Of a DNA stretch of 41,309 nucleotides, positions 1 to 41,309 are shown in pieces (position 1 is the stretch's first letter; every line of letters starts with the position of its first letter). The notes beneath the pieces were generated by a model. That model saw nothing but the letters and a program-made list of their open reading frames with translations, was not told where the DNA came from and searched no databases. The position numbers and the translations under genes are program-made. Source of the DNA: Granulicoccus phenolivorans DSM 17626 = NBRC 107789 = JCM 15570 (GTDB lineage: Bacteria > Actinomycetota > Actinomycetes > Propionibacteriales > Propionibacteriaceae); contig NZ_AUHH01000041.1 in the NCBI RefSeq assembly GCF_000423085.1, forward strand, positions 1 through 41,309, read 5' to 3'.

Positions 1-1208
1 CAGCGCGGATCATCCCCGCTCGCGCGGGGAGCACGCAGGGAACCGGCTCCCCGGGGTCACCGGGGCAGGATCATCCCCGCTCGCGCGGGGAGCACGGAGA
101 TGATCGCGATCAGGAGCGGCTCACTCACAGGATCATCCCCGCTCGCGCGGGGAGCACCTACCCGGAGGGTGGCCGCTGGATTCAGGTCGAGGATCATCCC
201 CGCTCGCGCGGGGAGCACCGTTTTTCGTGGCGCGAGCACTTGCGGCACGTGGGATCATCCCCGCTCGCGCGGGGAGCACGCGCCCGGGGTGATCTCCGGG
301 GTGAACGTGAACGGATCATCCCCGCTCGCGCGGGGAGCACTGGGAGATGTGCTCCCGCAGTGACGCCGCCCCTGGATCATCCCCGCTCGCGCGGGGAGCA
401 CCGCGTGGTGTCGATCAGGTTCGTGACGTTCGTCGGATCATCCCCGCTCGCGCGGGGAGCACACTGGTCGACCAGCTGTTCGAGATCAAGGATGGCCGGA
501 TCATCCCCGCTCGCGCGGGGAGCACCCGGAGGTGTCAATCGCGGCCCCCGCGCCGTCCGGATCATCCCCGCTCGCGCGGGGAGCACATGATGCGGTCAAC
601 CTCGGCCTGGGTGAACGTCGGATCATCCCCGCTCGCGCGGGGAGCACTCGAGGGTCATCGGGATCCGAATGACGTCGTTCGGATCATCCCCGCTCGCGCG
701 GGGAGCACTTCGGCCCGTTCGGGTGGAAGCCCGGCATGCAGCTCAACCTCAAGGGATCATCCCCGCTCGCGCGGGGAGCACCTCGGTGGCGCGGGTTCGG
801 CGCCGGCGGAACGCGGATCATCCCCGCTCGCGCGGGGAGCACCGCATAGCGAAGGGACCCGTCCGCCCTCAATACGGATCATCCCCGCTCGCGCGGGGAG
901 CACTCGACGACATCCCCCTGACCCTGGGGCCCATCGGGATCATCCCCGCTCGCGCGGGGAGCACAAATCGTGAGGGCTATAGCTGTCCAGGGCACCGGGA
1001 TCATCCCCGCTCGCGCGGGGAGCACTTGACGTCCGGTACTGCCGGGTGTCGTGGGAGCGGATCATCCCCGCTCGCGCGGGGAGCACCCTTCGGGGACGTG
1101 ACCGAATCGTCGGAGATCGGGATCATCCCCGCTCGCGCGGGGAGCACGGGTCCGGTCGCTGCGTGAGGCGACGATCATGGGGATCATCCCCGCTCGCGCG
1201 GGGAGCAC
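1..1208 (-). CRISPR. Type I-E CRISPR array, 20 repeats, truncated at left window edge
   Basis: Twenty apparently identical 28-bp repeats start at 7, 68, 130, 191, 252, 313, 374, 435, 498, 559, 620, 681, 754, 815, 876, 937, 998, 1059, 1120 and 1181. Read on the minus strand each begins GTGCTCCCCGC and ends GCGGGGATGATCC, with a CCCCGC/GCGGGG stem, the usual form for type I-E. The 19 complete spacers are 33 bp except 34 bp (96-129), 35 bp (463-497) and 45 bp (709-753). Bases 1-6 look like the end of a further spacer, so the array probably continues to the left. The leader-proximal end is at 1208, next to cas2, so transcription should run right to left. Cas6e from this locus is expected to cut 3' of the stem. 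The lack of repeat decay suggests the leader-distal end has not been reached. Confidence 0.98.
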
Positions 1209-1252: not shown

Positions 1253-1606
1253 TCACTTGCGGCGGGTTCGGATGCGTCGGTATCGCTCGGCTTTGCTGAT
1301 TCCTACTTTGGGTCCTTCCGTGACTACTTGTTGGGGGCCGGGGCGGCGCATGAGGGTGATGCCTTCGATGTCGACGGGTTCCCAGGAGTGGCCGTGGTTG
1401 CGGATTTCGAGGCCTTGCTCGTTGCGGGCGCTGAAGACCATCAGGGCTCGCCCGTCGCGGACCATCTCGAGGATGATGTCCCAGAGTGCGTCTCGGACTC
1501 GGGCGGAGATGCGGCCGACGTATACGCCGGGTGCGACTTCCATGAGCCATCTGGTCAGGTGGCCGCGGAGGCCGGAGGGGACGGCGGTCAGGATGATGAC
1601 GGTCAA
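1253..1606 (-). CDS. cas2: CRISPR-associated endonuclease Cas2, type I-E
   Basis: Cas2 is the dimeric partner of Cas1 in the spacer-integration complex. The 117-residue product begins with the family signature TVIILTAVPSGLRGHLTRWL and continues with GVYVGRISARVRDALW, typical of type I-E (CasBII) Cas2. It is longer than the roughly 95-residue E. coli protein; the extra length is a basic C-terminal tail ending RYRRIRTRRK. I chose the TTG start at 1606 because it overlaps the cas1 stop by 4 nt (TTGA) and places the first beta strand at the N terminus. It is the last gene of the cas operon and its 3' end probably carries the array promoter. Confidence 0.95.
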   Translation of the reverse strand: MTVIILTAVPSGLRGHLTRWLMEVAPGVYVGRISARVRDALWDIILEMVRDGRALMVFSARNEQGLEIRNHGHSWEPVDIEGITLMRRPGPQQVVTEGPKVGISKAERYRRIRTRRK

Positions 1607-2541
1607 AAGGGTGGGTCCTCTCCGTAGGACACGCCGCCCTGGACTTCGCCGAGTTGTTCGTCCCAGAGTTGAACGAAGTCCCAGTCGGGTTCTGTTTCGG
1701 CTGCTGCCCCGAGGAGCAGTGCTCGGATGTCGGCGATGCACCGTTCGATGACTTTGCCCGATTTCATGGCGTCCCGGACTGCGCGGCGGGTGTCACCGGG
1801 AATATCGGGGGTGTCGGTGGCCACGACGTCGAAGGCGATCGGGATCGTGACTTCCGCTTTGTAGAGGTCGGCGATGTCGTAGACGAAGGCACGGTGATGG
1901 CCGGTGTGCACGAAGCCGAGGCCGGGGGAGCAGCCCAGAGCGACGATCAGGGAGTGCACCACCCCGTACAGCGAGGAGTGGGCGGCCGAGAGGGCCTGGT
2001 TGATCGCGTCGCCTTCGGCGAATGCGTCGGGGTCGTAGTCCCGACGTCGCCACGGGACCTCTGTTCGTTCGGAGTTTCGCCGGTACAGCTGACGCACGCG
2101 GGCGCCTTCTCGTCCGCGGAGTTGTTGCATCGTGGCGGAGGTGACGACCTCATCGGGGAACCGCATTTCGTACATGCGCCGGGCCACGGCCAGCCGCTTG
2201 TCCCGGTGACTGACCAGTTCGGCCTGGGCCTGCAGCAGCCGGGTGGAGGTGGCCAGACCGGTTCCGTGGCCGTAGTAGCGCACGCCTTGTTCACCCACCC
2301 AGACCACCACGGCGCCGCTTTGTGCGATCAGCATCATCGCGTGGTGGGTGACCTTGGATCCCGGCCCGAGCAGCAGTGCGGCGATCGACGCGGCCGGGAT
2401 GTGCAGGACGCCTTGCTCGTTGGTGACGGTGATCGCGTTGCTGTCCCGGCTGAGGAGGCATCGTTCCACGTAGATGAAACTCAGTCTGTCCTCAGCCCGG
2501 AACAGCTCGCGCGGTCGGGCCGGACGGGCTCCTGGGATCAC
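1603..2541 (-). CDS. cas1: CRISPR-associated endonuclease/integrase Cas1, type I-E
   Basis: Cas1 is the metal-dependent integrase that, with Cas2, inserts new spacers at the leader end of the array. The product is 312 residues, close to the 305 of E. coli Cas1. Expected metal ligands are visible: Glu145 in LRGREGARVR, His212 in GFVHTGHHRAF, and Asp222/Asp225 in VYDIADLYK. The start is GTG at 2541, overlapping the cas6e stop by 4 nt; the N terminus ELFRAEDRLSFIYVERC matches type I-E Cas1 after about ten extra residues. Translation is coupled to cas6e upstream and cas2 downstream. The catalytic residues look intact, so adaptation is probably functional. Confidence 0.97.
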   Translation of the reverse strand: MIPGARPARPRELFRAEDRLSFIYVERCLLSRDSNAITVTNEQGVLHIPAASIAALLLGPGSKVTHHAMMLIAQSGAVVVWVGEQGVRYYGHGTGLATSTRLLQAQAELVSHRDKRLAVARRMYEMRFPDEVVTSATMQQLRGREGARVRQLYRRNSERTEVPWRRRDYDPDAFAEGDAINQALSAAHSSLYGVVHSLIVALGCSPGLGFVHTGHHRAFVYDIADLYKAEVTIPIAFDVVATDTPDIPGDTRRAVRDAMKSGKVIERCIADIRALLLGAAAETEPDWDFVQLWDEQLGEVQGGVSYGEDPPF

Positions 2542-3185
2542 GCCGGCCCGGCCAGGGTCATCAGGCCGCAGCCGTACGCCTTGGCTCTGCCGACGCCGGC
2601 GGTCAGGGCCTGCTGCAGGAGCTGGGGGTCGGTCACCTGAAGTACGCCGGTGTAGGTTGCCACCCCCAGGGTGACGGTGGCCGAGTCGCGACGAAAGGTG
2701 CGGGTGCTGCGCTCGATCACCTGGAAGGTCGGGGTGGCGTGGTCACCGGGGTCGGTGAGCCGGATCCCCAGCCGGTCACTTCGGTCCAGCAGCCATGTGG
2801 CCTGTTGGGCCGCGGTGACATGGGCGTAGACGCGTTTGCGTCCGTTCTCGGTCGCGTGGTGGGCGGGATTCGCGGTCAGTCGGAACCCCCAGGTCTGGCC
2901 GGTGGCCAACTGGTCGAGAAACCCGTCGTAGGCCAGCGAGGATGCGCTGGGCAGGCTGGGCCATCCGGCTTGCTCGTCCAGGTGGACCAGATCGGGTCGG
3001 TCCCGACTCACGATGTAGACCACGGGTTTGACCGATTTCGCGTGGTCGACCCGCCACAGGATCCGACCCGGATCGGAATCCGGAGGGAAGCCGGCCAGGA
3101 GTGCGGCGTGCATCGCCTGGGGCGAGCCGAGCAGTTTGCGTGCCCCGGATCGGCGGCTGTTCAGATAGGTCCTGGTCAGGATCAC
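2538..3185 (-). CDS. cas6e: CRISPR pre-crRNA endoribonuclease Cas6e (Cse3/CasE)
   Basis: Cas6e cuts the CRISPR transcript at the base of the repeat hairpin and stays bound to the 3' handle in Cascade. The 215-residue product has the family's N-terminal TRTYLNSRRSGARKLLGSPQ segment, ILWRVDHAKSVKPVVYIVSRD (first RAMP core) and the C-terminal glycine-rich loop ALTAGVGRAKAYGCGLMTL. The histidine in the SPQAMHAALL helix is at the position expected for the catalytic His. A GTG start at 3185 overlaps the cas5e stop by 4 nt (GTGA). The frame stays open further upstream, but that part is antisense-like composition inside cas5e and is not counted. Confidence 0.95.
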   Translation of the reverse strand: MILTRTYLNSRRSGARKLLGSPQAMHAALLAGFPPDSDPGRILWRVDHAKSVKPVVYIVSRDRPDLVHLDEQAGWPSLPSASSLAYDGFLDQLATGQTWGFRLTANPAHHATENGRKRVYAHVTAAQQATWLLDRSDRLGIRLTDPGDHATPTFQVIERSTRTFRRDSATVTLGVATYTGVLQVTDPQLLQQALTAGVGRAKAYGCGLMTLAGPA

Positions 3186-3907
3186 AGCAGCCCCCTGACT
3201 GTGGCGAAGGGATCGTGGCCACCGGCGTCCTGCGGTGGTTCGTAGAACGGGTTGGGCAGTTCGAGGGTGGTTTCCACCACGTCGCGGGTCGCGTATTCGC
3301 GGCGTTCTGGGGAGAAGCTGACGGGGATGTCCTGGAGTTGGCGGCGCGGGGACAGTCCGGAGAAGACGCCGACGTCGGCCTGGACCGGTACCCGCAGCAC
3401 TTCCTGGCGCCGGGCTCGGCGTCGGGCGACCTTCCCGGCCTGCCACGGGGTCGTCCGCAGCGCCGCCTCGGCGGTGTCTTCATGGTCGACCGTGAGCACC
3501 ACCCGTCCCTCGGGGACGCAGGAGCGCCGGCCGAGATAGAGCGGGAACGCCGGGTCGGCCAGGGCTTCGGCCAGGCCGTCGATCAGGCCGGATGGTCCCT
3601 CGATTGCGGCCACGAACACCGAGTCGGTCCAGTAGAAACGTTCCGACAGGGGCATCGACACGCCGGACACGCCGTGATGCGCGGTGTGGAAGTCCCGGAG
3701 CAGGGGGCCTTTCTGGTCGCAGCGGACGGCCAGGCGCAGGCCGACCAGGTCCTCGATCGGATCGGTGCGTCGGCGTCCCTGGGCGGCCGCGAGCAGGCCG
3801 AGGATGCCCGATTTGGTGGGCATCGCTTCGGTCGCGCGACGGGTGAAGCGGCTGGCGGCCCCCCAGCTCTGTAGAGGACCGGCGAGGCGAAGGAGGAGCA
3901 CACTCAT
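3182..3907 (-). CDS. cas5e: Cascade subunit Cas5e (CasD)
   Basis: Cas5e caps the 5' handle of the crRNA in the type I-E effector complex. The 241-residue product begins SVLLLRLAGPLQSWGAASRF and continues RRATEAMPTKSGILGLLAAAQGR, both hallmark Cas5e segments. Further matches are YLGRRSCVPEG and the C-terminal PERREYATRDVVE. Length is near the family norm (about 225-245). The ATG start overlaps the cas7e stop by 4 nt, and the stop overlaps the cas6e GTG start. No defects are seen. Confidence 0.95.
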   Translation of the reverse strand: MSVLLLRLAGPLQSWGAASRFTRRATEAMPTKSGILGLLAAAQGRRRTDPIEDLVGLRLAVRCDQKGPLLRDFHTAHHGVSGVSMPLSERFYWTDSVFVAAIEGPSGLIDGLAEALADPAFPLYLGRRSCVPEGRVVLTVDHEDTAEAALRTTPWQAGKVARRRARRQEVLRVPVQADVGVFSGLSPRRQLQDIPVSFSPERREYATRDVVETTLELPNPFYEPPQDAGGHDPFATVRGLL

Positions 3908-5031
3908 GCCGGCTCCTGGGCGCCCGCTTCGGCGGCGGCGGCGATCAGCTCGTCGAGGCTGACCACGTCGGCGTTCGGGATGGTGGCCAGCGCGTCCCGA
4001 ACACCGGACAGGCCGCAGACCAGAATGCGGTCGGGGCGTCGCCAGGTCGTGAAGACGTCGGTGGCGTAGTCCGCGAGACGTTTGACGCCGGGCTTGAGGT
4101 AGCCGGGCCCGGGGCGTACGGCCTCCTCGAAGGCACCGGCGAGGTTGACCGGCTGGCCGGACCCGATGGTGACCAGGATGACTTCGGGGCGGGTCCCGTT
4201 GGCGAAGGTGTTCTGCTTGCCGGACGGCATGCTGGCGATGAAGCTGTTGGTGAACTCGGCCAGAGCCCGCTGGGTCGCTGCCTGGTTGCCCAGGTTTTCC
4301 TGGAGTTGATCCACGTTGACTGCGGCATACCGATACAGCGTGCTGGCGTTGAACTCGATGGTGCCGATCATCCCGGCACCGGTCTCCTCGGCGTCCTCAC
4401 GCCGGTCGTCGACCGCGGTGTAGTAATCGAACTCGGGCGTGAGCTCGTGGATGCCGAGGGCGTGGGCGACCTGGCAGGCGGCGTCCACGTTGAGGTCGGG
4501 GGCATCGGCCACCATGCGGCCGAACAGGGCGATGTCCAGCGAGTGGTCGCGGTCCACCAGGTCGCGGACCTTGGCGGCTTTGAGAGCCTTGGTCGGGTCG
4601 GCTTCGTCGGCCGCGGTGATCGCGGCCTGCGCCAGGGTGCGGATCTGCCCGCGGGACAGGAACATCAGGTAACCGAGTTCCTCGACGCCGGCGGGCTCGT
4701 CCTTTTTCTTCGTGGGAGCCGCGAGCTTCGGGAAGCCGGCGGCGGTGAAGGCGGCCACGGCCAGCTGCTGGGCGCGATCGGCGAGTTCGGGGTTCTGGGT
4801 GGTGATCTCGTCCATCAGGAGTTCGACGATCTGTTTGCTGCGGATGCCGATGTCCTCGGGGGAGAGGCGGGCCTCGAAGTCCTTGCGGATGGCTCGTTTC
4901 CAGGACTGGCTGGAGACGCGGGCCCGGAGGACGCCGCCGTAGGTGGCGCTCTTCGGGGCGCCGGTGTCGTCGCGGTTGACGTTGCTCGGCGGGAGGCTCT
5001 GCAGGGCGTGAATCTCGAGGTAGGTGCTCAC
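3904..5031 (-). CDS. cas7e: Cascade backbone subunit Cas7e (Cse4/CasC)
   Basis: Six copies of Cas7e normally form the crRNA-binding filament of Cascade. The 375-residue product starts YLEIHALQSLPPSNVNRDDT and continues GAPKSATYGGVLRARVSSQSWKR (split here only for description), the conserved Cas7e N terminus. Later matches include NASTLYRYAAVNVDQL and SFIASMPSGKQNTFANGTRP. The length is near the E. coli value of 363. The gene overlaps cse2 upstream and cas5e downstream by 4 nt each, so the effector subunits are probably made in coupled stoichiometry. Confidence 0.96.
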   Translation of the reverse strand: MSTYLEIHALQSLPPSNVNRDDTGAPKSATYGGVLRARVSSQSWKRAIRKDFEARLSPEDIGIRSKQIVELLMDEITTQNPELADRAQQLAVAAFTAAGFPKLAAPTKKKDEPAGVEELGYLMFLSRGQIRTLAQAAITAADEADPTKALKAAKVRDLVDRDHSLDIALFGRMVADAPDLNVDAACQVAHALGIHELTPEFDYYTAVDDRREDAEETGAGMIGTIEFNASTLYRYAAVNVDQLQENLGNQAATQRALAEFTNSFIASMPSGKQNTFANGTRPEVILVTIGSGQPVNLAGAFEEAVRPGPGYLKPGVKRLADYATDVFTTWRRPDRILVCGLSGVRDALATIPNADVVSLDELIAAAAEAGAQEPA

Positions 5032-5633
5032 TGGGCTTCTCCTTCAGCGGTGGCGGTCTGGCGGTCGTCGTGGATACGGTGGTAGTCGCGGCCCCAGCGG
5101 CGGCGGACGTCGTCCGCGCGGCCGGTTTGCAGGTCGTAGAGGTCGTCGGTGTAGCGCCCGTAGTCGAACGGGATCTCGTGGGTGCGCAGTTGGCTGATCA
5201 GTCCGCGGGCGTGGGTGAGCGCGGCGGTGACCTGGGTGGTGGCCGCCATCGCGATGAAGCGGCGATAGGTGGGAGTTTCGTGGTGGTCCATGGTTGCGCC
5301 GGCCTGGAGTTCGGCCAGGCGTCGGATCGCTGCGCCGAACCTGAGGTCATCGGAGTGCATGCTGGTCGAGCGGGACTGTTGGTGGGTGGCGAATTGGGTC
5401 AGGGCGCGATGGATCGCCTGTTCCTCGCGTTCCCGTCGGGTTTGGCTGAACTCCTCGGGAATTCCGTCGAGGGTGATGCTCCAGATTTCGGGGAGGGAGC
5501 CGGGTTCGCGGGCGATCCCGTGGCGAAGTTGGGCGAGCATTGCCGTGGCGGAGGGGGAGAGTTGGGCCGGGTTGGCGCCGATGAGGCGCTTGATCCGCCC
5601 CACGACCAGAAAGCGGCGGTTGTAGTCGGCCAT
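5028..5633 (-). CDS. cse2: Cascade small subunit Cse2 (CasB)
   Basis: Cse2 forms a dimer along the belly of Cascade and stabilises the R-loop. The product is 201 residues, somewhat longer than the 160 of E. coli. Family-like features are the HGIAREPGSLPEIWSITLDG segment, the helical HRALTQFATHQQSRSTSMHS stretch, and the C-terminal FDYGRYTDDLYDLQ segment followed by RRRWGRDYHR. The start codon at 5633 shares one base with the cse1 stop (TGATG), and the stop overlaps cas7e. Position between cse1 and cas7e supports the call. Confidence 0.94.
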   Translation of the reverse strand: MADYNRRFLVVGRIKRLIGANPAQLSPSATAMLAQLRHGIAREPGSLPEIWSITLDGIPEEFSQTRREREEQAIHRALTQFATHQQSRSTSMHSDDLRFGAAIRRLAELQAGATMDHHETPTYRRFIAMAATTQVTAALTHARGLISQLRTHEIPFDYGRYTDDLYDLQTGRADDVRRRWGRDYHRIHDDRQTATAEGEAQ

Positions 5634-7219
5634 CAGGATTCCTTCGGGTCGGTTGGGTAGGCCAGGGGAAGGGCTTTGCGCAGGGCTGAGGAGAACCAGA
5701 CATGGGCCAGATCGGCGGTCAGGTAGTCCTGCTTCTGACCGGTGCGGACGGTGCGGCCACGGATTGCGGCGGGGGAGACCGGGAGCGATCGGGCCAGGGA
5801 GGTCAGCAATTCGCGGACGTGCTCCTGCCAGGCTCGGTGCTCGGGCTTGGGATCAGTGGCGGTGTTGAGCCGGCCGATCCAGTCGCGGGCGGGCGCATCG
5901 AGGGAACTCCAGGCCTGCTGCATCGCCTGCGCGCGGGCGCCGGCCCCGGGGCTGTCCCCGCGGTCCCCGGCGGCCTTGCTCAGGTTGGCCGCCAGATTTC
6001 CCAGGGCCCGCACCGCTTCCTCGGTGTTGGCGACGGCGTCCTGGAGCATCGCGCGCAGGGGCCCGGAGCTGCGGTTGAGCAGGACGGTATGGACGTCGAG
6101 CTGGTCGGTCACGATCTCCTCGATCGTGGCTTCCTGCGGGCCGTAGCTGATGCCGACGGCCTCCAGGTGAAACTTTCGGTTCAGGTCTTCGTGCTGGCTC
6201 AGCGATTCCAACGTGCCCGGCATCCGGAACGGCTGACGCTCGGCGCCGGCCTGGTCCAGCGCGAGCACTGCCGGGAGGGAACGCCAGAAGGAGCGGTCGG
6301 GCTCGTGCTTGCGGGGCATGTAGGTGTCCCGGCCGCCGTTCTTCTTGGTCTGGGGTTCGGAGAAGCGCCATCCCGACATCGCTTCGACCGGGTAGCGATT
6401 CTGCGGGGTGAGCTTGTCGCCCTGGGCGAGAACGACCCCGGTCACGCATTCTCCGGTGGTCACCAGGCGCATCCGGCGCGATTGCCAGGTGAGGACCTCC
6501 ACGATGCCGGCGGGGACCGGCGCCTCGCGCCGTAGCGCGGTATCCGGTTCGTCTTTTGTCCAGATCGGACGATCCTCGGGCTGGCCCGAGGTGGCGACCA
6601 GGTTGTACAGCAGGGTTTCGGCGAGCGAGTCGCCGTGCAGGATGATGCCGCCGAGCTGCCCGGCCCAGGCCGGTCCGATGGGGTAGCCCTTGCCGCCCTT
6701 GACCAGTGGATCCCCGACGGCCCCGGACCGGATTCCGGAGGGATCGAAGCTCTGGGTGTGGACAACCCAGCGCGCTGCTTCGGCGAGCGAGATGTGCTCC
6801 AGACTCGGACCGGTCCGGGTGGTGAAGAACGGGAGACCGTTCGGCACGTCGGCGATGATCTTCTCCAGTCCGGAGGCCTCGCCCTTCGCGGTATGCAGGC
6901 CCGCCACCTGCATGAACGGACGGTCGGGATGGAACAGGTCGAAGCGGTCGGACCACTCGTCCAGGTAGGAGTCGACCAGGACGAGGTCGAGCCCGTCCTC
7001 GCGGAGATCATCGAGGCGATCCTCGCTGTGAATCTTGTGGGAGTCATGGATGATCGCGAGGAGAATCCGCAGGATCGCGAACGCCTGGGTGGGCACCTCG
7101 CCCCCGATCCGGCGGATGTCGGATGCGTCGCGAAAGAGGGTCCCCAGCGAGACCTCGTCAGGGCCGGTATGTCGCTGGACGAGGATCCAGGGTTCTTCGA
7201 CGAGATTGAAACTCCTCAT
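5633..7219 (-). CDS. cse1: Cascade large subunit Cse1 (Cas8e/CasA)
   Basis: Cse1 recognises the PAM, opens the target DNA and recruits Cas3. The 528-residue product opens FNLVEEPWILVQRHTG, the typical Cse1 N terminus, and contains LFHPDRPFMQVAGL, GLPFFTTRTG, and LHGDSLAETLLYNLV, all in family order. E. coli CasA is 502 residues. The C-terminal part is rich in helices, as expected for the four-helix bundle. The start codon overlaps the cas3 stop by 4 nt (ATGA). PAM preference cannot be read from the sequence. Confidence 0.95.
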   Translation of the reverse strand: MRSFNLVEEPWILVQRHTGPDEVSLGTLFRDASDIRRIGGEVPTQAFAILRILLAIIHDSHKIHSEDRLDDLREDGLDLVLVDSYLDEWSDRFDLFHPDRPFMQVAGLHTAKGEASGLEKIIADVPNGLPFFTTRTGPSLEHISLAEAARWVVHTQSFDPSGIRSGAVGDPLVKGGKGYPIGPAWAGQLGGIILHGDSLAETLLYNLVATSGQPEDRPIWTKDEPDTALRREAPVPAGIVEVLTWQSRRMRLVTTGECVTGVVLAQGDKLTPQNRYPVEAMSGWRFSEPQTKKNGGRDTYMPRKHEPDRSFWRSLPAVLALDQAGAERQPFRMPGTLESLSQHEDLNRKFHLEAVGISYGPQEATIEEIVTDQLDVHTVLLNRSSGPLRAMLQDAVANTEEAVRALGNLAANLSKAAGDRGDSPGAGARAQAMQQAWSSLDAPARDWIGRLNTATDPKPEHRAWQEHVRELLTSLARSLPVSPAAIRGRTVRTGQKQDYLTADLAHVWFSSALRKALPLAYPTDPKES

Positions 7220-10140
7220 GCCCGGATCACCTCCAGTCCCCGGTCCGGGCTGTAGCGCAGTTTGCCCACGCCGCCCGGCTCGTCGAACAGGTCAGTCATC
7301 AACACGGTGCTTCCTTCCTGAATCTGGGTCATCGGGAGAAAGAGCTCGCCCTTGAGGAGAGGGTGCTGCCGCCACGCCCAGTGGCGGACGGCTTCCTGGC
7401 TTTCCAGCAGGCGCAGGGTCTGCTCCAGCCGTTGGGGCCATCGGGTCAACTGGGGTGGCAGCCGAATCGACCAGGACGAGATCTCCAGTGCGGTCTCCCG
7501 GTTCGGGATCGAGCGCACATCCAGCGGCAGGCCCCCGTGCCACGGTGGCCGAATGACCTGCCCGTCGGGATCCAACGGCACCAGAATCACTTCCAGGGTC
7601 GGATCGGTGTCGCGCACCATGACCGCAGCCTGCTGTTCGGTGGCATCCGGACTGTGCGCCATCCAGTCGGCCATCGTGCGACGGCGCCGCAACTGATCCG
7701 GAGTCTTCGGGAGGGCGTACGCTCCCGCGGCTTCGCGCTGGGCGGCGCGATGGGCCTCGTACTCGACCCGTGCAGTCTCCAGCGTCGGCTGCCAATGCGG
7801 GGGACCGATCGGCGCGGGTCCAAGAGCGCCGGCCACCAGCGGGGCGATGTCCTCGGGCAGGGTGAGCGTCGGACCGTGCTCGATCAGGGCCGCGGCGGTA
7901 CGGAGGAGAAGATGATCTCCGTACACGGCGTGGGACCCCGAATCCGCGCGCGGCGGCTCGTCGGGTGCCTCGCTGGGCTCGGCCAGCACCAGGACACGGG
8001 GGAGTTCCAGCCCGACCGGACGCTGTCGTTGATGGCGATGGAGGCGGCCGATCCGCTGGAACAGCAGATCCATCGGGGCCAGATCGGTGACCAGCAGATC
8101 GAAGTCGACATCCAGAGACTGTTCGACCACCTGGGTGGCGACCACGATGTGTCGCCGGGGCCGGCGTCCGTGTTTGCCGAAGGTCTCCACCAGCCGGCCG
8201 TCATTGCTGGTCCGGTCCGCGGCGATGTAGCGGGAATGGGCCAGCGAGACCGGCCCCAGCCCCGCGTCCCGGATCGCGTCAAAGGTCTGCTGCGCCGCGG
8301 TCACGGTGTTGCGGACCACCAGGACACACCCCGCGTCCGGAACCGTGCGCCGCAGCCGGGCGATGAGAGCGTCGAGGTCGTTGTTCTCCCATTCCCAGTG
8401 CACCTCACGCGACGCCGCGATGGTCGGGATCCGAGTGACCCGTGCACGGGTGTCGTCCCGGTTCAGGGTGGTGATGATCGGGTAGTCCGTGCCGTCCAGC
8501 TCGGGGACGCGCGCCGCTTCGGCACCGCCGTAGGCGGCCACCAACTCGCGACGCCGGGCTGGCGTCAGAGTCGCCGAGAGCACGATCACCGGGGTTCCGT
8601 ACTCGCCCAGCCACGGCAGCAGCGCGTCGAGGAAAACGTTCATGTAGGAGTCGCTGGCGTGCGCCTCGTCAACGATGACAACCTTGCCGGCCAGGGCCAG
8701 GTGATTGAGCATCTGATGCTTGATCGTGGCGCCGGCCACCAGGATCTGATCGATCGTGCAGACCACGAAGTTGTGCAGCAGGCGCCGCTTCCTGCCGTTG
8801 AACCACTGGTGCGCGACCGCCCGGGCCATGCCGTCCGCGGATTCCTCGTCGTTGGTGCGGGGCTGGGTTTCCTCCGGGTACAGGGCGTCCACCGCATACT
8901 CGGCATCTGCCCGACGCACGGCCTCGACCATCTCCGCGTAGGTCGGGTTGAGCCGGGCCTTCCCGTGCCCCAGCCCCAACGACCACGGAACACTGTGCTG
9001 CATCTCGACCGACTGATGGTCCAGCCAGTCGAGAACCCGTTCGAGCATCGCGTTGGTGGTCGCCTGGGTCGGGAGGGCCATCAGTAGCCCCTGGGCTCCG
9101 TAACGGGCGGCCAGCCGGTAGCCGGCGACCAGACCGGTCTCGGTCTTGCCCTCACCCGGCTGAGCCTCGATGATCATCAACTGGCAGTCGGCGTCGGTCA
9201 GTTCTTCGACCGCCTCCTGGATCGGTTTCAGGCGGTACTCCGCCGGCCACCCGAACTGCTCGCGATACAGCTCCAACCCGGACAGCGTGCTCGGCAGGGG
9301 TGCCCACGGGCTGGGAAGAGCGGCGTGGTCCCAACCACGTCGGAACCGGTCCGGATCGGTGATCACCGCCGGTGACAGCACCGAATCCAGCGGCCGCAGG
9401 CCGAAGTAGTCCTGATTGCTGGCGAGCCAGTCCGCCATGATGAGCAGGCCGGTCATCTCGATCTGCACCGCCATCGGCAGGACCACCTCCGACCACGCCG
9501 ACAGCCGCTCGGCCACGCCCGAGGTCCGCCCGGCCCAGTCGAGCAATTCCGTACGGACGGCGTCCCATTCCGCACCCCCCACACCGGCCGGGCGGTCGGG
9601 GATCGCCTGGACGTCCTTCGCGGGCACGGCGCGTCCATGATGGGCGCCCAGGATCGCGGCGAGCTGTCTTCCCAGATGCACGGGGAGGCCGTGGTCGCTG
9701 CACCATGCCGTCAGGGCCCAGTTGCTGACCGCCGAGTGCGGCTGCGCGCGGCGCTCATCCTTCAAATCGGCCAGTGGTGGGCACTCGAGCCCCAGCTGAC
9801 GCACCCGGGCCGCCAGCGTCTCCACCTGACAGATGAAGCTCGGGGAGGCTTTCCCGAGGTCGTGGGCAGAACACAGAAAGACGAGCAGGGCCCGGGCGTC
9901 CGCGTGGCCTCCCGGCAAGCAGTCTGCCCAGCGCCCTTTGACTGCCGGCGCCAGCCAGTGATCGAACAGCAGACCGCCGACGCGCGCGGTGTCCAGCAGG
10001 TGTTGCGGTAGCGAGAGCCAGCCCAGATGGCCGGCGCTCTTCGCCCAGATTCCACGTGCGGCCTCACTGAGGCCAAAAGTGTCAGTCCCGTCCAGCACCA
10101 TGAAGATCGCCCCCGATGTTCCATCGATGACACAGAGCAT
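7216..10140 (-). CDS. cas3: CRISPR-associated helicase-nuclease Cas3, type I-E
   Basis: Cas3 nicks and degrades DNA bound by Cascade. The 974-residue product has an N-terminal HD nuclease domain (LPQHLL with His47; SAHDLGK with His93-Asp94; GAHHGR near 165-170). The superfamily 2 helicase part has Walker A AQPGEGKTE (326-334), DEAH 491-494, SAT 522-524 and motif VI FQRIGRLHRH. Length exceeds the 888 of E. coli, in line with actinobacterial forms. ATG at 10140 is taken as the start; Met14 at 10101 is an alternative that still precedes the HD domain. It is the first gene of the coupled cas operon, and the upstream region carries an orphan repeat within inverted repeats. Confidence 0.96.
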   Translation of the reverse strand: MLCVIDGTSGAIFMVLDGTDTFGLSEAARGIWAKSAGHLGWLSLPQHLLDTARVGGLLFDHWLAPAVKGRWADCLPGGHADARALLVFLCSAHDLGKASPSFICQVETLAARVRQLGLECPPLADLKDERRAQPHSAVSNWALTAWCSDHGLPVHLGRQLAAILGAHHGRAVPAKDVQAIPDRPAGVGGAEWDAVRTELLDWAGRTSGVAERLSAWSEVVLPMAVQIEMTGLLIMADWLASNQDYFGLRPLDSVLSPAVITDPDRFRRGWDHAALPSPWAPLPSTLSGLELYREQFGWPAEYRLKPIQEAVEELTDADCQLMIIEAQPGEGKTETGLVAGYRLAARYGAQGLLMALPTQATTNAMLERVLDWLDHQSVEMQHSVPWSLGLGHGKARLNPTYAEMVEAVRRADAEYAVDALYPEETQPRTNDEESADGMARAVAHQWFNGRKRRLLHNFVVCTIDQILVAGATIKHQMLNHLALAGKVVIVDEAHASDSYMNVFLDALLPWLGEYGTPVIVLSATLTPARRRELVAAYGGAEAARVPELDGTDYPIITTLNRDDTRARVTRIPTIAASREVHWEWENNDLDALIARLRRTVPDAGCVLVVRNTVTAAQQTFDAIRDAGLGPVSLAHSRYIAADRTSNDGRLVETFGKHGRRPRRHIVVATQVVEQSLDVDFDLLVTDLAPMDLLFQRIGRLHRHQRQRPVGLELPRVLVLAEPSEAPDEPPRADSGSHAVYGDHLLLRTAAALIEHGPTLTLPEDIAPLVAGALGPAPIGPPHWQPTLETARVEYEAHRAAQREAAGAYALPKTPDQLRRRRTMADWMAHSPDATEQQAAVMVRDTDPTLEVILVPLDPDGQVIRPPWHGGLPLDVRSIPNRETALEISSWSIRLPPQLTRWPQRLEQTLRLLESQEAVRHWAWRQHPLLKGELFLPMTQIQEGSTVLMTDLFDEPGGVGKLRYSPDRGLEVIRA

Positions 10141-10180
10141 ACAGGATGAGCACGACTAATAAAACCTTTTTAGATGATGG

Positions 10181-10258
10181 GCTCGGGACGGGAAATCCCC
10201 GCGCGAGCGGGGAACACGGTTGATCCCACTAACAAAACTGGGTCATCCCGTCCCGAGC
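10181..10258. promoter_or_regulatory. Inverted-repeat element enclosing an orphan CRISPR repeat, upstream of cas3
   Basis: GCTCGGGACGGGA at 10181-10193 and TCCCGTCCCGAGC at 10246-10258 form perfect 13-bp inverted arms separated by 52 bp. The loop contains the degenerate CRISPR repeat at 10191-10217. The element lies 41-118 bp upstream of the cas3 start. As RNA it could fold into a long hairpin with an inner stem-loop; as DNA it could be a two-half-site operator. Nothing similar is seen elsewhere in the window. Confidence 0.7.
10191..10217 (-). repeat. Orphan degenerate CRISPR repeat upstream of cas3
   Basis: On the minus strand this 27-nt element reads GTGTTCCCCGC, loop TCGC, then GCGGGGATTTCC. 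The array repeat reads GTGCTCCCCGC, loop GCGA, then GCGGGGATGATCC. The stem is intact, both flanks match with small changes, and the tetraloop is the reverse complement of that in the array. It is alone: no second repeat lies within a spacer length. Orientation is the same as the array and the cas genes. It could be recognised by Cas6e if transcribed. Confidence 0.85.
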
Positions 10259-10326
10259 ATGGCAATCGTACGCAGCGACTCGGACCGGAGATATTGATGG
10301 CATGACGGTGGTGTCAAGCAGGTGGG

Positions 10327-10461: not shown

Positions 10462-10902
10462 TCAGGCGGAGACCTCCCGGTCCTCGCCGAGTGGGTCGGC
10501 ACTCCCGGGCACCGGGTGCAGCGCCCGGAATCGTTCGGAGGTGTACTCCGGGGCCACCCGGTCGAGGTAGCACTCCACCTGCGACCGGCTGCGGACCAGG
10601 CGCTCGATGGTCTCGTCCAGGCGGTCGCGTTCGGTGACCAGCAGGGCGGCCATGTCCGGATCGTCGTGGTGCGGCATCTCCGCGCCCGGCCCGTGGACGC
10701 AGGGCAGCAGTACCCGCACCACTCGGGTGGGCATCCCGCTCTCCACCAGCAGCCGGATCTGGCGTACGGTCTCGACCGCGGACTCGTCGTAGTCGCGATA
10801 GTTGCTGAAGGTGCGGTCGGGGGCCAGCAGCCCCTGCTCCTCGTAGTAGCGCAACTGGCGGGTGGTCGTCCCGGCCCGCCGGGCCAACTCGCCGATCTTC
10901 AT
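10462..10902 (-). CDS. MerR-family transcriptional regulator
   Basis: This 146-residue product starts MKIGELARRAGTTTRQLRYY, the classic MerR winged helix-turn-helix, followed by EEQGLLAPDRTFSNYRDYD (wing) and a long dimerisation helix ERDRLDETIERLVRSRSQ. One cysteine sits in LLPCVHGP between the DNA-binding and helical parts. The effector cannot be predicted. RBS GGAGAT lies 4-5 nt before ATG. It is the last gene of a minus-strand run LLM oxidoreductase, EthD, EthD, merR, and a MerR-type dyad lies in the promoter of that run. Self-regulated control of the operon is therefore likely. Confidence 0.9.
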   Translation of the reverse strand: MKIGELARRAGTTTRQLRYYEEQGLLAPDRTFSNYRDYDESAVETVRQIRLLVESGMPTRVVRVLLPCVHGPGAEMPHHDDPDMAALLVTERDRLDETIERLVRSRSQVECYLDRVAPEYTSERFRALHPVPGSADPLGEDREVSA

Positions 10903-19286: not shown

Positions 19287-20744
19287 TCACCAGCCGGTCC
19301 TGGCCAACTTTCCGCCGGCCTGCGTGGCCTTCGGTCCAGCCGGGGCGACCTTCGGCGCCGGAGCGTTCTGCTGCGGAGCCTGCGCCTGCGGCGCCGGGAC
19401 CTGCTTGCCCTTCGACTTCAGATCCGCGGAGGTGCCGGGCATGCCGTCCTTGGCCGGATCCTGCGGCATTTCGGCGCGGACCTTGGTCGGATCCTCCGCC
19501 TGCTTGCCGGACGTCGCCGGGCTCGGGGTGGGCGTGCCCTTGCCGGCGGCATCCCCGGCCGGGGTTGCGGTCGGCTTGGCGCCGGGGGTCGCGGTCGTGC
19601 CGGGCGTTGCCGTCCGGCTCGGCGTGGCCGTGGCACTCGGCTCAGCTGTCGCGATCGGCGTCACGGTGCTGCTGGGCTTGGCCGTGGCGCTGGGCGTGGC
19701 GGTCGCGCTGGGCTTGGCGGTCGCGCTCGGGGTGGCCGTGGCGCTGGGCTTGGCCGTGGCGCTCGGGGTGACCGTCGCGCTCGGGGTGGCCGTGGCGCTG
19801 GGCGTTACCGTGGCACTCGGCGTCGCCGTGGGCTTGACCGTGGCGCTCGGGGTGGCCGTGGCGCTGGGCGTTCCCGTAGCACTCGGCGTCGCCGTGGGCT
19901 TGACCGTGGCACTCGGCGTCGCGGTCGCGCTCGGGGTGGCCGTCGCGCTGGGCGTGACCGTGGCACTCGGCGTCGCAGTCGCGCTGGGCGTGACCGTCGC
20001 GCTGGGTTTGGCCGTGGCACTCGGGCTCTTGGTCACGGTCGGGGTAGCGCTGGGCTTGGCCGACGGCGAGGCACTCGGGCTCGCGGAGGCACCCCCGTTG
20101 TACTGATACAGGTTGTACTGCTTCATCATCGAGGTGATCTGCGCGGTGTACCCCGGATCGGTCGCGTACCCGGCCTTGTGCACCTCGGCGATGAACTGGT
20201 CCGGATTCGACTTGTAGTCGAACGCCTTCTTGTACCGCGAGTTGACCGTCAGGAAGTTGCCATGGTCCAGGAAGGAGTCCGCGGCATCGCCATAGGTGCG
20301 GAAGCCGTCGGTGATGGTGACCTTGGACCCGTTGAAGACCTCCTGGGTCTGCATGTTGAGGCAGCCGGTGGCGTACGGCCCCAAGGAGCGACCGCTGCCG
20401 CACTTGATGCCGAAGAAGGCGTTGCCCTTCTGGGTCAGGCCCGACTTGCCCCACCCGGATTCCACGATGGCCTGCGCCATTGCGACCGAGGCGGGTACGC
20501 CGAACTTCTTCTCACTCGCCTGGGCCAGCGGCTTGATCGAGTTGATGAAGGCCGACTGACTGGAGGTATCGACCTTGGTGGCTGCAAGAGCGGGCAGCCC
20601 GACGACTCCCGCGCCGATCGTGAAGATCGCCCCCAGGACGATGGTGGACAATGTTGCGGACCCAACCCGGCCCGTCCGGGTCGGACCGGCTCTGCCCATC
20701 CATTCCTGGGCAGCTGTGCGTGCTTTGGCGGCAAGATGCTTCAT
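19287..20744 (-). CDS. Exported glucosaminidase-domain cell-wall hydrolase with long ATPSA repeat region
   Basis: The 485-residue product has a secretion signal (TLSTIVLGAIFTIGAGVVGL then PALAATKV, cleavage likely after ALA). A glucosaminidase (FlgJ/LytG-like) domain spans roughly residues 55-212: VAMAQAIVESGWGKSGLTQK carries the catalytic Glu, followed by GNAFFGIKCGSG, FRTYGDAADSFLDHGNFL and GYATDPGYTAQITSMMKQYN. Residues of about 215-390 are six-residue PSAT-type repeats, likely a wall-spanning linker. The C terminus ends GGKLARTGW. I chose ATG at 20744, with AAGGGG a few bases before it, over an in-frame start at 20771. It should cleave peptidoglycan glycan strands. Confidence 0.88.
   Translation of the reverse strand: MKHLAAKARTAAQEWMGRAGPTRTGRVGSATLSTIVLGAIFTIGAGVVGLPALAATKVDTSSQSAFINSIKPLAQASEKKFGVPASVAMAQAIVESGWGKSGLTQKGNAFFGIKCGSGRSLGPYATGCLNMQTQEVFNGSKVTITDGFRTYGDAADSFLDHGNFLTVNSRYKKAFDYKSNPDQFIAEVHKAGYATDPGYTAQITSMMKQYNLYQYNGGASASPSASPSAKPSATPTVTKSPSATAKPSATVTPSATATPSATVTPSATATPSATATPSATVKPTATPSATGTPSATATPSATVKPTATPSATVTPSATATPSATVTPSATAKPSATATPSATAKPSATATPSATAKPSSTVTPIATAEPSATATPSRTATPGTTATPGAKPTATPAGDAAGKGTPTPSPATSGKQAEDPTKVRAEMPQDPAKDGMPGTSADLKSKGKQVPAPQAQAPQQNAPAPKVAPAGPKATQAGGKLARTGW
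19570..20095 (-). repeat. In-gene 18-bp tandem repeat (six-residue Pro/Ser/Ala/Thr unit)
   Basis: About 500 bp of the glucosaminidase gene consist of degenerate 18-bp units, each coding for variants of ATPSAT, KPSATA or VTPSAT. Synonymous variation between units is low in the middle (19660-20035), pointing to recent unequal exchange. Copy number is likely to differ between strains. Confidence 0.85.
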
Positions 20745-20986
20745 GGTTTCCCCTTCCAGCCGCCTCGACACTAAGTTCGGCTACCGGGGAGTCGGCAACG
20801 ATCCTGTCCGCCCTTATAGGGACAGAAGATCTCGAAAATTTCCGGCCAATATCGTCGCGGCTAGGGGAAACACCGAGAAGCTGAGGGAATCCCAGTCGGT
20901 TCCCAAACACCTGAACCTCAAGCGGAACTTGAGACTCAACTCTCTCTCAAGTCGCACGAGTCACAGCCGTTGCAGGGGAACGGCGG
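20745..20986 (-). promoter_or_regulatory. Intergenic region upstream of the glucosaminidase gene
   Basis: This 242-bp stretch separates two same-strand wall-hydrolase genes. It is less GC-rich than its surroundings and holds a perfect dyad, CTCAAG (20917-20922) and CTTGAG (20928-20933), with a 5-bp centre. The downstream 150 bp could be a structured 5' leader, but I could not match it to a named riboswitch. No promoter is certain. Confidence 0.35.
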
Positions 20987-40664: not shown

Positions 40665-40917
40665 GCGTGCAGAACTGCTGCGCCACCTGCCGGGCATGGT
40701 CGCGGTTGGTCGACCCACACCCTGGCGTTCAGACCATAGTCGGTGTCGTTCGCCCGGGCGATCGCCTCGGCGTCGTCGGCGACCCGATGGATCGCAACCG
40801 GCCCGAGGTTTCGGTGCGGGCCAGGGTCGCTTGCGGTGGTACGTCGGTGCGGATCGTCGGCTGCTGGACCAGCGGGCCCAGATCGGGCCACGCTCGGCCG
40901 CCGGCCAGCACCTCTTA
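40665..40917 (-). pseudogene. Remnant of an NAD(P)-dependent aldehyde dehydrogenase (succinate-semialdehyde type)
   Basis: Three reading frames together give the C-terminal part of an ALDH. Frame one reads LAGGRAWPDLGPLVQQPTIR then TDVPPQATLARTET. Frame two reads GPVAIHRVADDAEAIARAND then TDYGLNARVW. Frame three reads STNRDHARQVAQQF. A missing base near 40806, where E-T-F-G-P is expected, and an extra G near 40714-40716 explain the shifts. The N-terminal three quarters, including the catalytic Cys and Glu, are absent: the match ends at a TAA at 40915-40917, next to the tandem repeat. The wording resembles GabD2-like succinate-semialdehyde dehydrogenase. Clearly non-functional. Confidence 0.88.
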
Positions 40918-41107
40918 CGACAGGAGAGTTGTGGGTGTGCTGTCCTGCGACGGGAAAGTTGTGGGTGGGCCGTCCCGCGACAGAAAAGTTGGGCGTGGGC
41001 GCTCGTGCGACAGGAAAGTTGGGCATGGGCCGTTCTGCGACAGGAAAGTTGGGCATGGGCCGTTCTGCGACAGGAAAGTTGGGCATGGGCCGTTCTGCGA
41101 CAGGAAG
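40918..41107. repeat. 30-bp tandem repeat, six units plus a partial
   Basis: Units start at 40918, 40948, 40978, 41008, 41038 and 41068, with a 10-bp partial at 41098. Each begins CGACAGGAAAGTTGGGCATG or a variant. Units 4-6 are identical; units 1-3 are progressively different, unit 1 the most. The 30-bp period keeps several frames open, so apparent peptides here are artefacts. It borders the ALDH remnant. Confidence 0.95.
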
Positions 41108-41309
41108 ATCCATCTCGCATGGGCGCGGGTGATCCCGCGGTTGCTCCAACAGGCGCGGGATTCCGTCCCAGTCGCTGGGTCGTCTTTGGCGGTGCGGGAA
41201 GCGTGCCACCTGGCCGCGGGGTGCACCCGTCGGCGCCTCAGGTGTCCACGTCCGGGCTGACCTCGCCTCGTGGGTATAGGAGCCCCGGGGCTCACGGTCA
41301 TCCAGCGCC
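41108..41309. other. No gene recognised
   Basis: I see no convincing gene, repeat or RNA in the last 202 bp. Open frames here only extend from the tandem repeat and have no start signals or family resemblance. A gene may begin or end beyond the edge. Confidence 0.5.

Follow-up and report, generated by a model that had tools for sequence, protein, structure and literature searches.

A probable type I-E CreR unit upstream of cas3 in Granulicoccus phenolivorans and candidate mimics of CreR guides on mobile DNA

CreR RNAs regulate cas genes, and autorepression of this kind occurs in type I-B, I-E and V-A systems; the original description reportedly appeared in Cell Host Microbe in 2023. Type I-E CreRs are stated as known in a passage of a review (PMC13131331), and the CreR idea is described in part of a second article (PMC12737573). 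The locus presented here resembles CreR in having a crRNA-like unit beside cas genes and a limited guide match next to a PAM upstream of these genes, as well as in the predicted repression by the system's own effector. It differs from CreR, as portrayed in those passages of PMC13131331 and PMC12737573, in that the guides of the units are mostly 20-21 nt long, in that a long-range helix seems to replace the hairpin of the 5' repeat, and in the existence of guide-like copies away from cas genes. In the open-licence PMC literature, we found no description of CreR guides borne by phages or plasmids.

Other systems come close in part. CreTA and CrePA share with this locus a crRNA-like RNA, a short guide and the use of Cascade as repressor (PMC12737573, in part; CreTA is also covered in a section of PMC8730458). 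Unlike in CreTA and CrePA, the target here lies before cas3, and no toxin target was found on C25, the contig of the same genome that carries a second unit. The L-tracrRNA of type II-A systems likewise derives from a repeat and turns the effector into a repressor of its own operon, although, in the relevant passage of PMC8730458, that system is Cas9-based and is not a mini-array. Racr, the RNA anti-CRISPR of phages, is comparable in being a CRISPR-repeat RNA on viral DNA with an expected use of host Cas proteins (PMC10651486, in part); repeat units on mobile DNA without cas genes were found in the present work too. However, the part of that source concerned presents Racr as a solitary repeat unit acting by sequestration of Cas proteins, whereas the units described below have two repeats, with a CreR-like guide in 6 of 15, a different build from that of a lone repeat lacking a functional guide.

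A repeat-guide-repeat unit and its target upstream of cas3

The window, that is, the whole 41,309-nt stretch analysed (contig NZ_AUHH01000041.1 of G. phenolivorans DSM 17626), carries a type I-E cas operon on its minus strand, from cas3 to cas2, as identified with Pfam. The features are the following:

7-1208, minus strand: CRISPR array of 20 repeats GTGCTCCCCGCGCGAGCGGGGATGATCC, with a period of mostly 61 nt (repeat and pattern searches)
1253-1741, minus strand: cas2 reading frame, whose start may be internal (Pfam)
1603-2541, minus strand: cas1 (Pfam)
2538-3446, minus strand: cas6e reading frame, whose start may be internal (Pfam)
3182-3907, minus strand: cas5 (Pfam)
3904-5031, minus strand: cas7 (Pfam)
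5028-5633, minus strand: cse2 (Pfam)
5633-7219, minus strand: cas8e (Cse1) (Pfam)
7216-10140, minus strand: cas3 (Pfam); the true start is more likely near 10102 than at the start of the reading frame, 10140
10153-10168, minus strand: target, comprising the PAM AAG (10168-10166) and the seed match GTTTTATTAGTCG (10165-10153) (guide-seed search of the window)
10181-10193, minus strand: 3' arm of the putative RNA helix, pairing 13/13 with 10246-10258 (sequence and fold)
10191-10217, minus strand: psiR2, the degenerate 3' repeat (pattern match and fold)
10218-10238, minus strand: putative CreR guide of 21 nt, GTTTTGTTAGTGGGATCAACC (19 of its first 20 letters are common to the C25 guide)
10239-10258, minus strand: psiR1, the 5' repeat remnant (sequence; its handle is also in the C25 unit)

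The unit upstream of cas3 consists of a repeat, a guide and a second repeat, all read on the minus strand. The repeat pattern has 21 matches in the window against 0.01 expected, and psiR2 contains the degenerate repeat GTGTTCCCCGCTCGCGCGGGGAT at 10195-10217 on the minus strand, which is also the array strand. The stem CCCCGC/GCGGGG within 10212-10197 is the expected Cas6e hairpin. psiR1 is more degenerate; its 3' part, GGGATGACCCA, lies at 10249-10239 on the same strand, 21 nt 5' of the other repeat, and includes the 8-nt handle ATGACCCA (10246-10239) that recurs in the second unit on C25. Handles resembling ATGAYCC are present in relatives. The preliminary description of this DNA had taken psiR2 for an orphan repeat in array orientation. 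The degenerate repeat and its strand are as it stated, but the repeat is not solitary: a second repeat end lies 21 nt to its 5' side and, since handle, guide and repeat start all recur on C25, psiR2 is to be read as the 3' repeat of a two-repeat unit. A crRNA-like unit with repeat remnants thus stands beside type I-E cas genes, as in CreR. Neither a sigma-70-type promoter nor a terminator-like site was found between 10050 and 10400. Upstream of the unit lies a gene for a MerR-family regulator (10462-10902, minus strand).

The target is situated between the unit and cas3, 13-28 bases before the start of the cas3 reading frame. Over the first 13 positions, guide and target are mismatched at 6 and 12 only. 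In Cascade, positions 6, 12 and 18 of the guide stay unpaired, and AAG is among the PAMs of type I-E systems. Apart from the guide itself, this is the sole site in the window without a mismatch at positions 1-5 and 7-11, and it follows AAG. The exact sequence GTTTTNTTAGT occurs at four places in the 4.1-Mb genome, namely in two guides, in the target before cas3 and at a site that follows TAC; AAN precedes only the one before cas3. The reversed GTTTTNTTAGT pattern, used as a control, gave no match in the 4.1-Mb genome. A partial guide match beside a PAM upstream of the cas operon is, again, what characterizes CreR of type I-E. By eye, the fourth GTTTTNTTAGT site (L058, G000:C15:55996) lies in a probable promoter between direct repeats resembling GTGCTTAC.

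On the evidence of its sequence, this chromosomal unit very probably represents a type I-E CreR, a cas-autorepressing RNA. The two-repeat mini-CRISPR would be transcribed and its RNA would become a crRNA-like guide after processing by Cas6e. The guide would lead Cascade to the site lying between the unit and cas3 that it matches in part (AAG and about 11 seed positions), a site that would serve as the cas promoter; the match would be long enough for binding and too short for cutting, so that Cascade would lower transcription of its own operon. Taken as a whole, the explanation developed here, which combines a type I-E CreR with an RNA helix and with mimics on mobile DNA acting as anti-CRISPRs, appears likely, its parts being graded separately below. 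Confidence in the main reading and in the anti-CRISPR reading is tempered because the mismatch profile described below is partly selected and because the C25 unit was found by similarity.

Guide-target pairs in other genomes

A match to Cas3 at E <= 1e-50 was obtained in 44 of 198 genomes of the family, our own included. The set examined consisted of 33 cas3 loci, of which 30 came from the family and 3 from the order; L017, whose contig begins 366 bases ahead of the match, was left out of the pair scans for that reason. A pair was defined as an AAN site in the locus's own 700-base flank with at most one mismatch over positions 1-5 and 7-11. Handle-like sites were present at 20 of the 33 loci and lacking at the other 13. 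Among the 20, a pair with the own flank was found at 14 (counting the window, and L076 and L078, which share one guide) and no pair at 6. When guides were compared across genomes as a control, 3 of 640 combinations gave a pair, two of these between L076 and L078. The guides differ between relatives, and those in pairs match their own cas flank: the match is kept and the letters are changed. There is good support for the class that the preliminary description had proposed, a creR-type crRNA-like repressor acting on the cas operon. At L079, the target lies on the other side of the guide. A looser scan yielded further plausible pairs in L084, L085 and L087, along with several others that look like chance.

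The mismatch profile was compiled from 13 distinct pairs, in which positions 1-5 and 7-11 were subject to selection, and position 6 and all positions from 12 onward were not. Position 12 is mismatched in 11 pairs, position 13 in none and position 14 in 2; positions 15 and 17 are mismatched in 4 pairs each and position 16 in 6. Position 6 is mismatched in 9 pairs, position 18 in 10, and positions 19-24 in 6-10. Within the seed, position 9 is mismatched in 5 of the 13. Positions 6 and 18 are no signature by themselves, since the former was left out of the selection and the latter is no worse than 19-24. The informative part is the free position 12 inside a matched run; position 6 agrees with it and position 18 says little. 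The chromosomal CreR suggests a search rule made up of a short guide, an AAN PAM and free positions 6 and 12.

Beyond these relatives, a class-wide sample of 28 loci contained handle-like sites at 16, with a pair at 1 of the 16 (cross control, 1 of 432). A scan of genome contigs with the single Cas3 protein returned 18 pattern stretches, none of them a relative. Upstream of cas3 in L016, no CreR pair was detected; in the same locus, transposase-like reading frames are visible by eye between repeat remnants and cas3.

A collection of 84,980 species genomes was surveyed with the pattern GGGATGAYCCN{21,22}GTGYTCCCCRC. It returned 21 loci, actinobacterial by name in 20 cases; of the 21 short-spacer loci, 11 adjoin type I-E cas genes and have an AAN target. 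L172 has a target and no cas match within its 8 kb. Two loci were discarded, L168 as a chance match and L173 as a partly masked array, and L162, L165 and L175, which repeat guides of L102 and L091, were not counted again. In Bifidobacteriaceae, a unit with a target was present in 10 of 33 stretches searched, two of the ten from one genome; the units detected in Bifidobacterium are located in the interval from cas3 to cas8e or near it. Loci L133-L161 stood outside the CreR-pair scan, and L133-L150 served only in the target-match library used below.

Units without cas genes

A search of the own genome with window positions 10150-10300 identified one other place, G000:C25:12638-12689, with 89% identity over 53 nt. 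This unit has in common with that of the window the handle GGGATGACCCA, the guide start GTTTTGTTAGTGGGATC and the repeat start GTGTTCCCC, and lacks the arms. Its guide is identical to the chromosomal one at 19 of the first 20 letters; this similarity is not an independent test, because C25 was found by its resemblance to the window unit. C25 is a 58-kb contig, of which 25 proteins were scanned with Pfam and 10 with PHROGs. They include SSB, an actin-type partition protein, a RecJ-like nuclease, a P4-type primase (aligning over 74% of its length, at 69% identity, with the primase of a Streptomyces plasmid), helicases, an HNH nuclease, a protease-like AAA+ ATPase, a WhiB regulator and a Mutator-type transposase. 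This content suggests that C25 is a mobile, plasmid- or phage-like element. No end overlap of 20 bases or more was found in its last 3 kb. The C25 unit had no match in plasmid and phage records; among 96 related genomes, it matched its own genome and, weakly and over one repeat end only, G035. When 19 spacers from the window and 54 from the first 14 kb of contig C31 were compared with C25, the best matches (15/15 or 20/22 letters, E of 0.001 or more) were taken as chance.

A pattern scan of viral contigs gave 15 loci, 8 of them with repeat stems; the seven without (L093, L095, L097, L099, L100, L101 and L104) were set aside. Seven Cas proteins of the window had no tblastn match in the 15 viral loci. 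Integrase genes occur near the units of L098 and L091, and an endolysin-type gene near that of L102. Of the 6 and 3 loci from two further pattern scans of viral contigs, L249 alone was new, and it was rejected as a match inside an ordinary-looking array. The 25 loci at which an exact guide 16-mer was found in viral contigs had no repeat flanks and were likewise dropped, and three scans of viral contigs for host guides produced 18 new loci, none with a repeat stem. In the viral contig L103 (2904-3043), at least three short-spacer units (20-21 nt) follow one another with different guides, as if aimed at several hosts.

The cas-free set comprised 15 guides: those of C25, L178, L171, L170 and L180, together with ten that came from seven or eight viral contigs. 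Six of the 15 agree with one of 31 CreR guides at 16-20 of 20 letters (C25 19, L178 17, L171 16, L092 20, L096 16 and L098 17). Shuffled guides (6,000) shared at most 14 letters, and among 15,000 column-shuffled guides, 0.12% reached 16 and none more. L171 has trkH and glmM in its neighbourhood and may sit on the chromosome; the CreR of its genome is L069. In this isolate, P6A17, the guide of the second unit (L171:272-291) matches 18 of 20 letters within trkH (L171:1751-1772, antisense), after ATC. For B. goeldii and B. choerinum, in which the guides of L102 and L091 are present, there was no Cas3 match at E <= 1e-10.

The cas-free mimics would act as anti-CRISPRs, a reading we favour by a little: units with CreR-like guides would most likely make the mobile element repress the host cas operon. 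The fuller proposition, that plasmids and phages carry host CreR guides as RNA-guided transcriptional anti-CRISPRs which, upon entry, would have the Cascade of the host silence the cas operon, with guides tracking the host cas promoters, and that the CreR here has a circularly permuted Cas6e helix, seems to us evenly balanced. The most serious competitor, in our estimate a rather doubtful one, holds that the cas-free units are Racr-type decoys or neutral captures, whose repeats titrate Cas proteins and whose guide is irrelevant. Such sequestration of Cas proteins by phage Racr RNAs is described for type I-F in part of PMC10651486, and the other 9 of the 15 guides do not rise above the shuffle maximum in likeness to the CreR guides of the set. 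An irrelevant guide, however, fits poorly with three of the units. L178 came from an independent pattern scan and belongs to a MAG in which a chromosomal CreR is present too; its guide departs from that of this CreR at 3 of 20 letters and yet matches its own genome's cas3 target at 14 of 15 non-flipped positions. L098 fits the cas target of Olsenella KH3B4 at 15 of 15 such positions, one more than that genome's own CreR. L092 equals a Bifidobacterium CreR guide at 21/21 letters within different repeats; its signal is guide identity and not target match.

Target matching was otherwise at the level of the controls. At most 13 of 15 non-flipped positions were matched by 260 shuffled guides, and 11 of the 13 guides in the test, those of C25 and L092 among them, scored 12 or less, within the shuffle range. 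The ten viral guides showed no excess against Bifidobacterium cas loci in one test (5 matches, shuffled mean 7.0) or in a second (1 match, shuffled 2.0).

It is very improbable that the cas-free units are CreA-type antitoxins repressing a toxin gene on the element. CreTA and CrePA do have the same RNA architecture, as depicted in part of PMC12737573; against this, the three stretches making up C25 contain no second seed site with up to one mismatch, and among 12 other loci checked, some have second sites, none of them after AAN. In L102 and L162, the second seed site is a second unit. No target in a toxin promoter on the element was found on C25 or at these 12 loci.

If the cas-free copies act as anti-CRISPRs in the way predicted, about 80 bases of DNA, without any protein, would be enough for invaders to set the immune feedback of the host against the host itself. 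An anti-CRISPR of this sort would be beyond the reach of protein-based searches, and pressure from mimics could explain the large differences between CreR guides of relatives.

The arms and a possible long-range helix

The arms GCTCGGGACGGGA (10181-10193) and TCCCGTCCCGAGC (10246-10258) lie 52 nt apart and are complementary at 13/13 positions; the perfect 13-bp inverted repeat around psiR2 had been correctly reported in the preliminary description. Exact copies of the arm sequence are confined to these two places in the window; with up to two mismatches, there are 3 matches against 5.8 expected, no more than chance. The minus-strand RNA folds at -49.7 kcal/mol, against a shuffle mean of -29.7 (z = -5.5, 0/200), a value to which the repeat hairpin contributes.

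The 5' arm (10258-10246, minus strand) lies within psiR1, corresponds to the strand expected on the 3' side of the stem of the first repeat and ends at the expected Cas6e cut. The first repeat has kept 3 bp of local hairpin, with 13 bp paired to the segment after the second repeat. The same layout is present in L012 (7 bp) and L067 (8 bp) in other letters, where the local hairpins measure 3 and 4 bp. In 3 of 39 units, a helix immediately following the second repeat was found, and it is strong only in that of the window; the other 36 have none there, four of them showing 6-7 bp at other distances. Nine other units have equally weak local hairpins and no substitute helix. At the helix end facing the handle, the strands follow one another as in a normal repeat hairpin, and this end can therefore be read as a circularly permuted Cas6e site. 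From this anatomy, the arms may, with an even chance, be a long-range helix standing in for the lost Cas6e hairpin of psiR1: the helix between the first-repeat remnant and the segment after the second repeat would take over its place. An RNA hairpin had been offered before as an alternative explanation of the arms, probably rightly.

We consider unlikely an origin of the arms that is unrelated to CreR, whether as a protein operator or as the termini of a small mobile element. Their perfection would suit such an origin, as would the ATGG found on both outer sides (10177-10180 and 10259-10262). The C25 copy, however, has no arms, whereas in a MITE-like element each copy would carry the terminal inverted repeats; the 5' arm stops where Cas6e is expected to cut the 5' repeat, and the corresponding place in L012 and L067 is taken by shorter helices that differ in sequence.

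Scarcely credible, finally, is the arrangement that the preliminary description had put forward, with a guide CGTCCCGAGC just 3' of 10191-10217 and its target at 10249-10258: the ten matching bases do exist, plus-strand CGTCCCGAGC being present at 10249-10258, yet the adjoining TCC, against which that description had itself cautioned, is identical to the repeat end and does not fit an AAN PAM, the letters make up one half of a perfect inverted repeat folding into the helix of the 5' remnant and the segment 3' of the second repeat, and the C25 copy, being without arms, lacks the proposed pairing while the guide between the repeats is common to both copies. The guide at 10238-10218 and the target at 10165-10153 beside AAG make the better pair.

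Elsewhere in the genome, contig C31 (L054) holds a longer stretch of array with the same repeat, and less similar repeats near 5662-5961. In the window, tandem repeats with an 18-bp period occupy 19503-20107, inside a reading frame with a glucosaminidase domain (19287-20771, minus strand), and others with a 30-bp period lie at 40882-41121.
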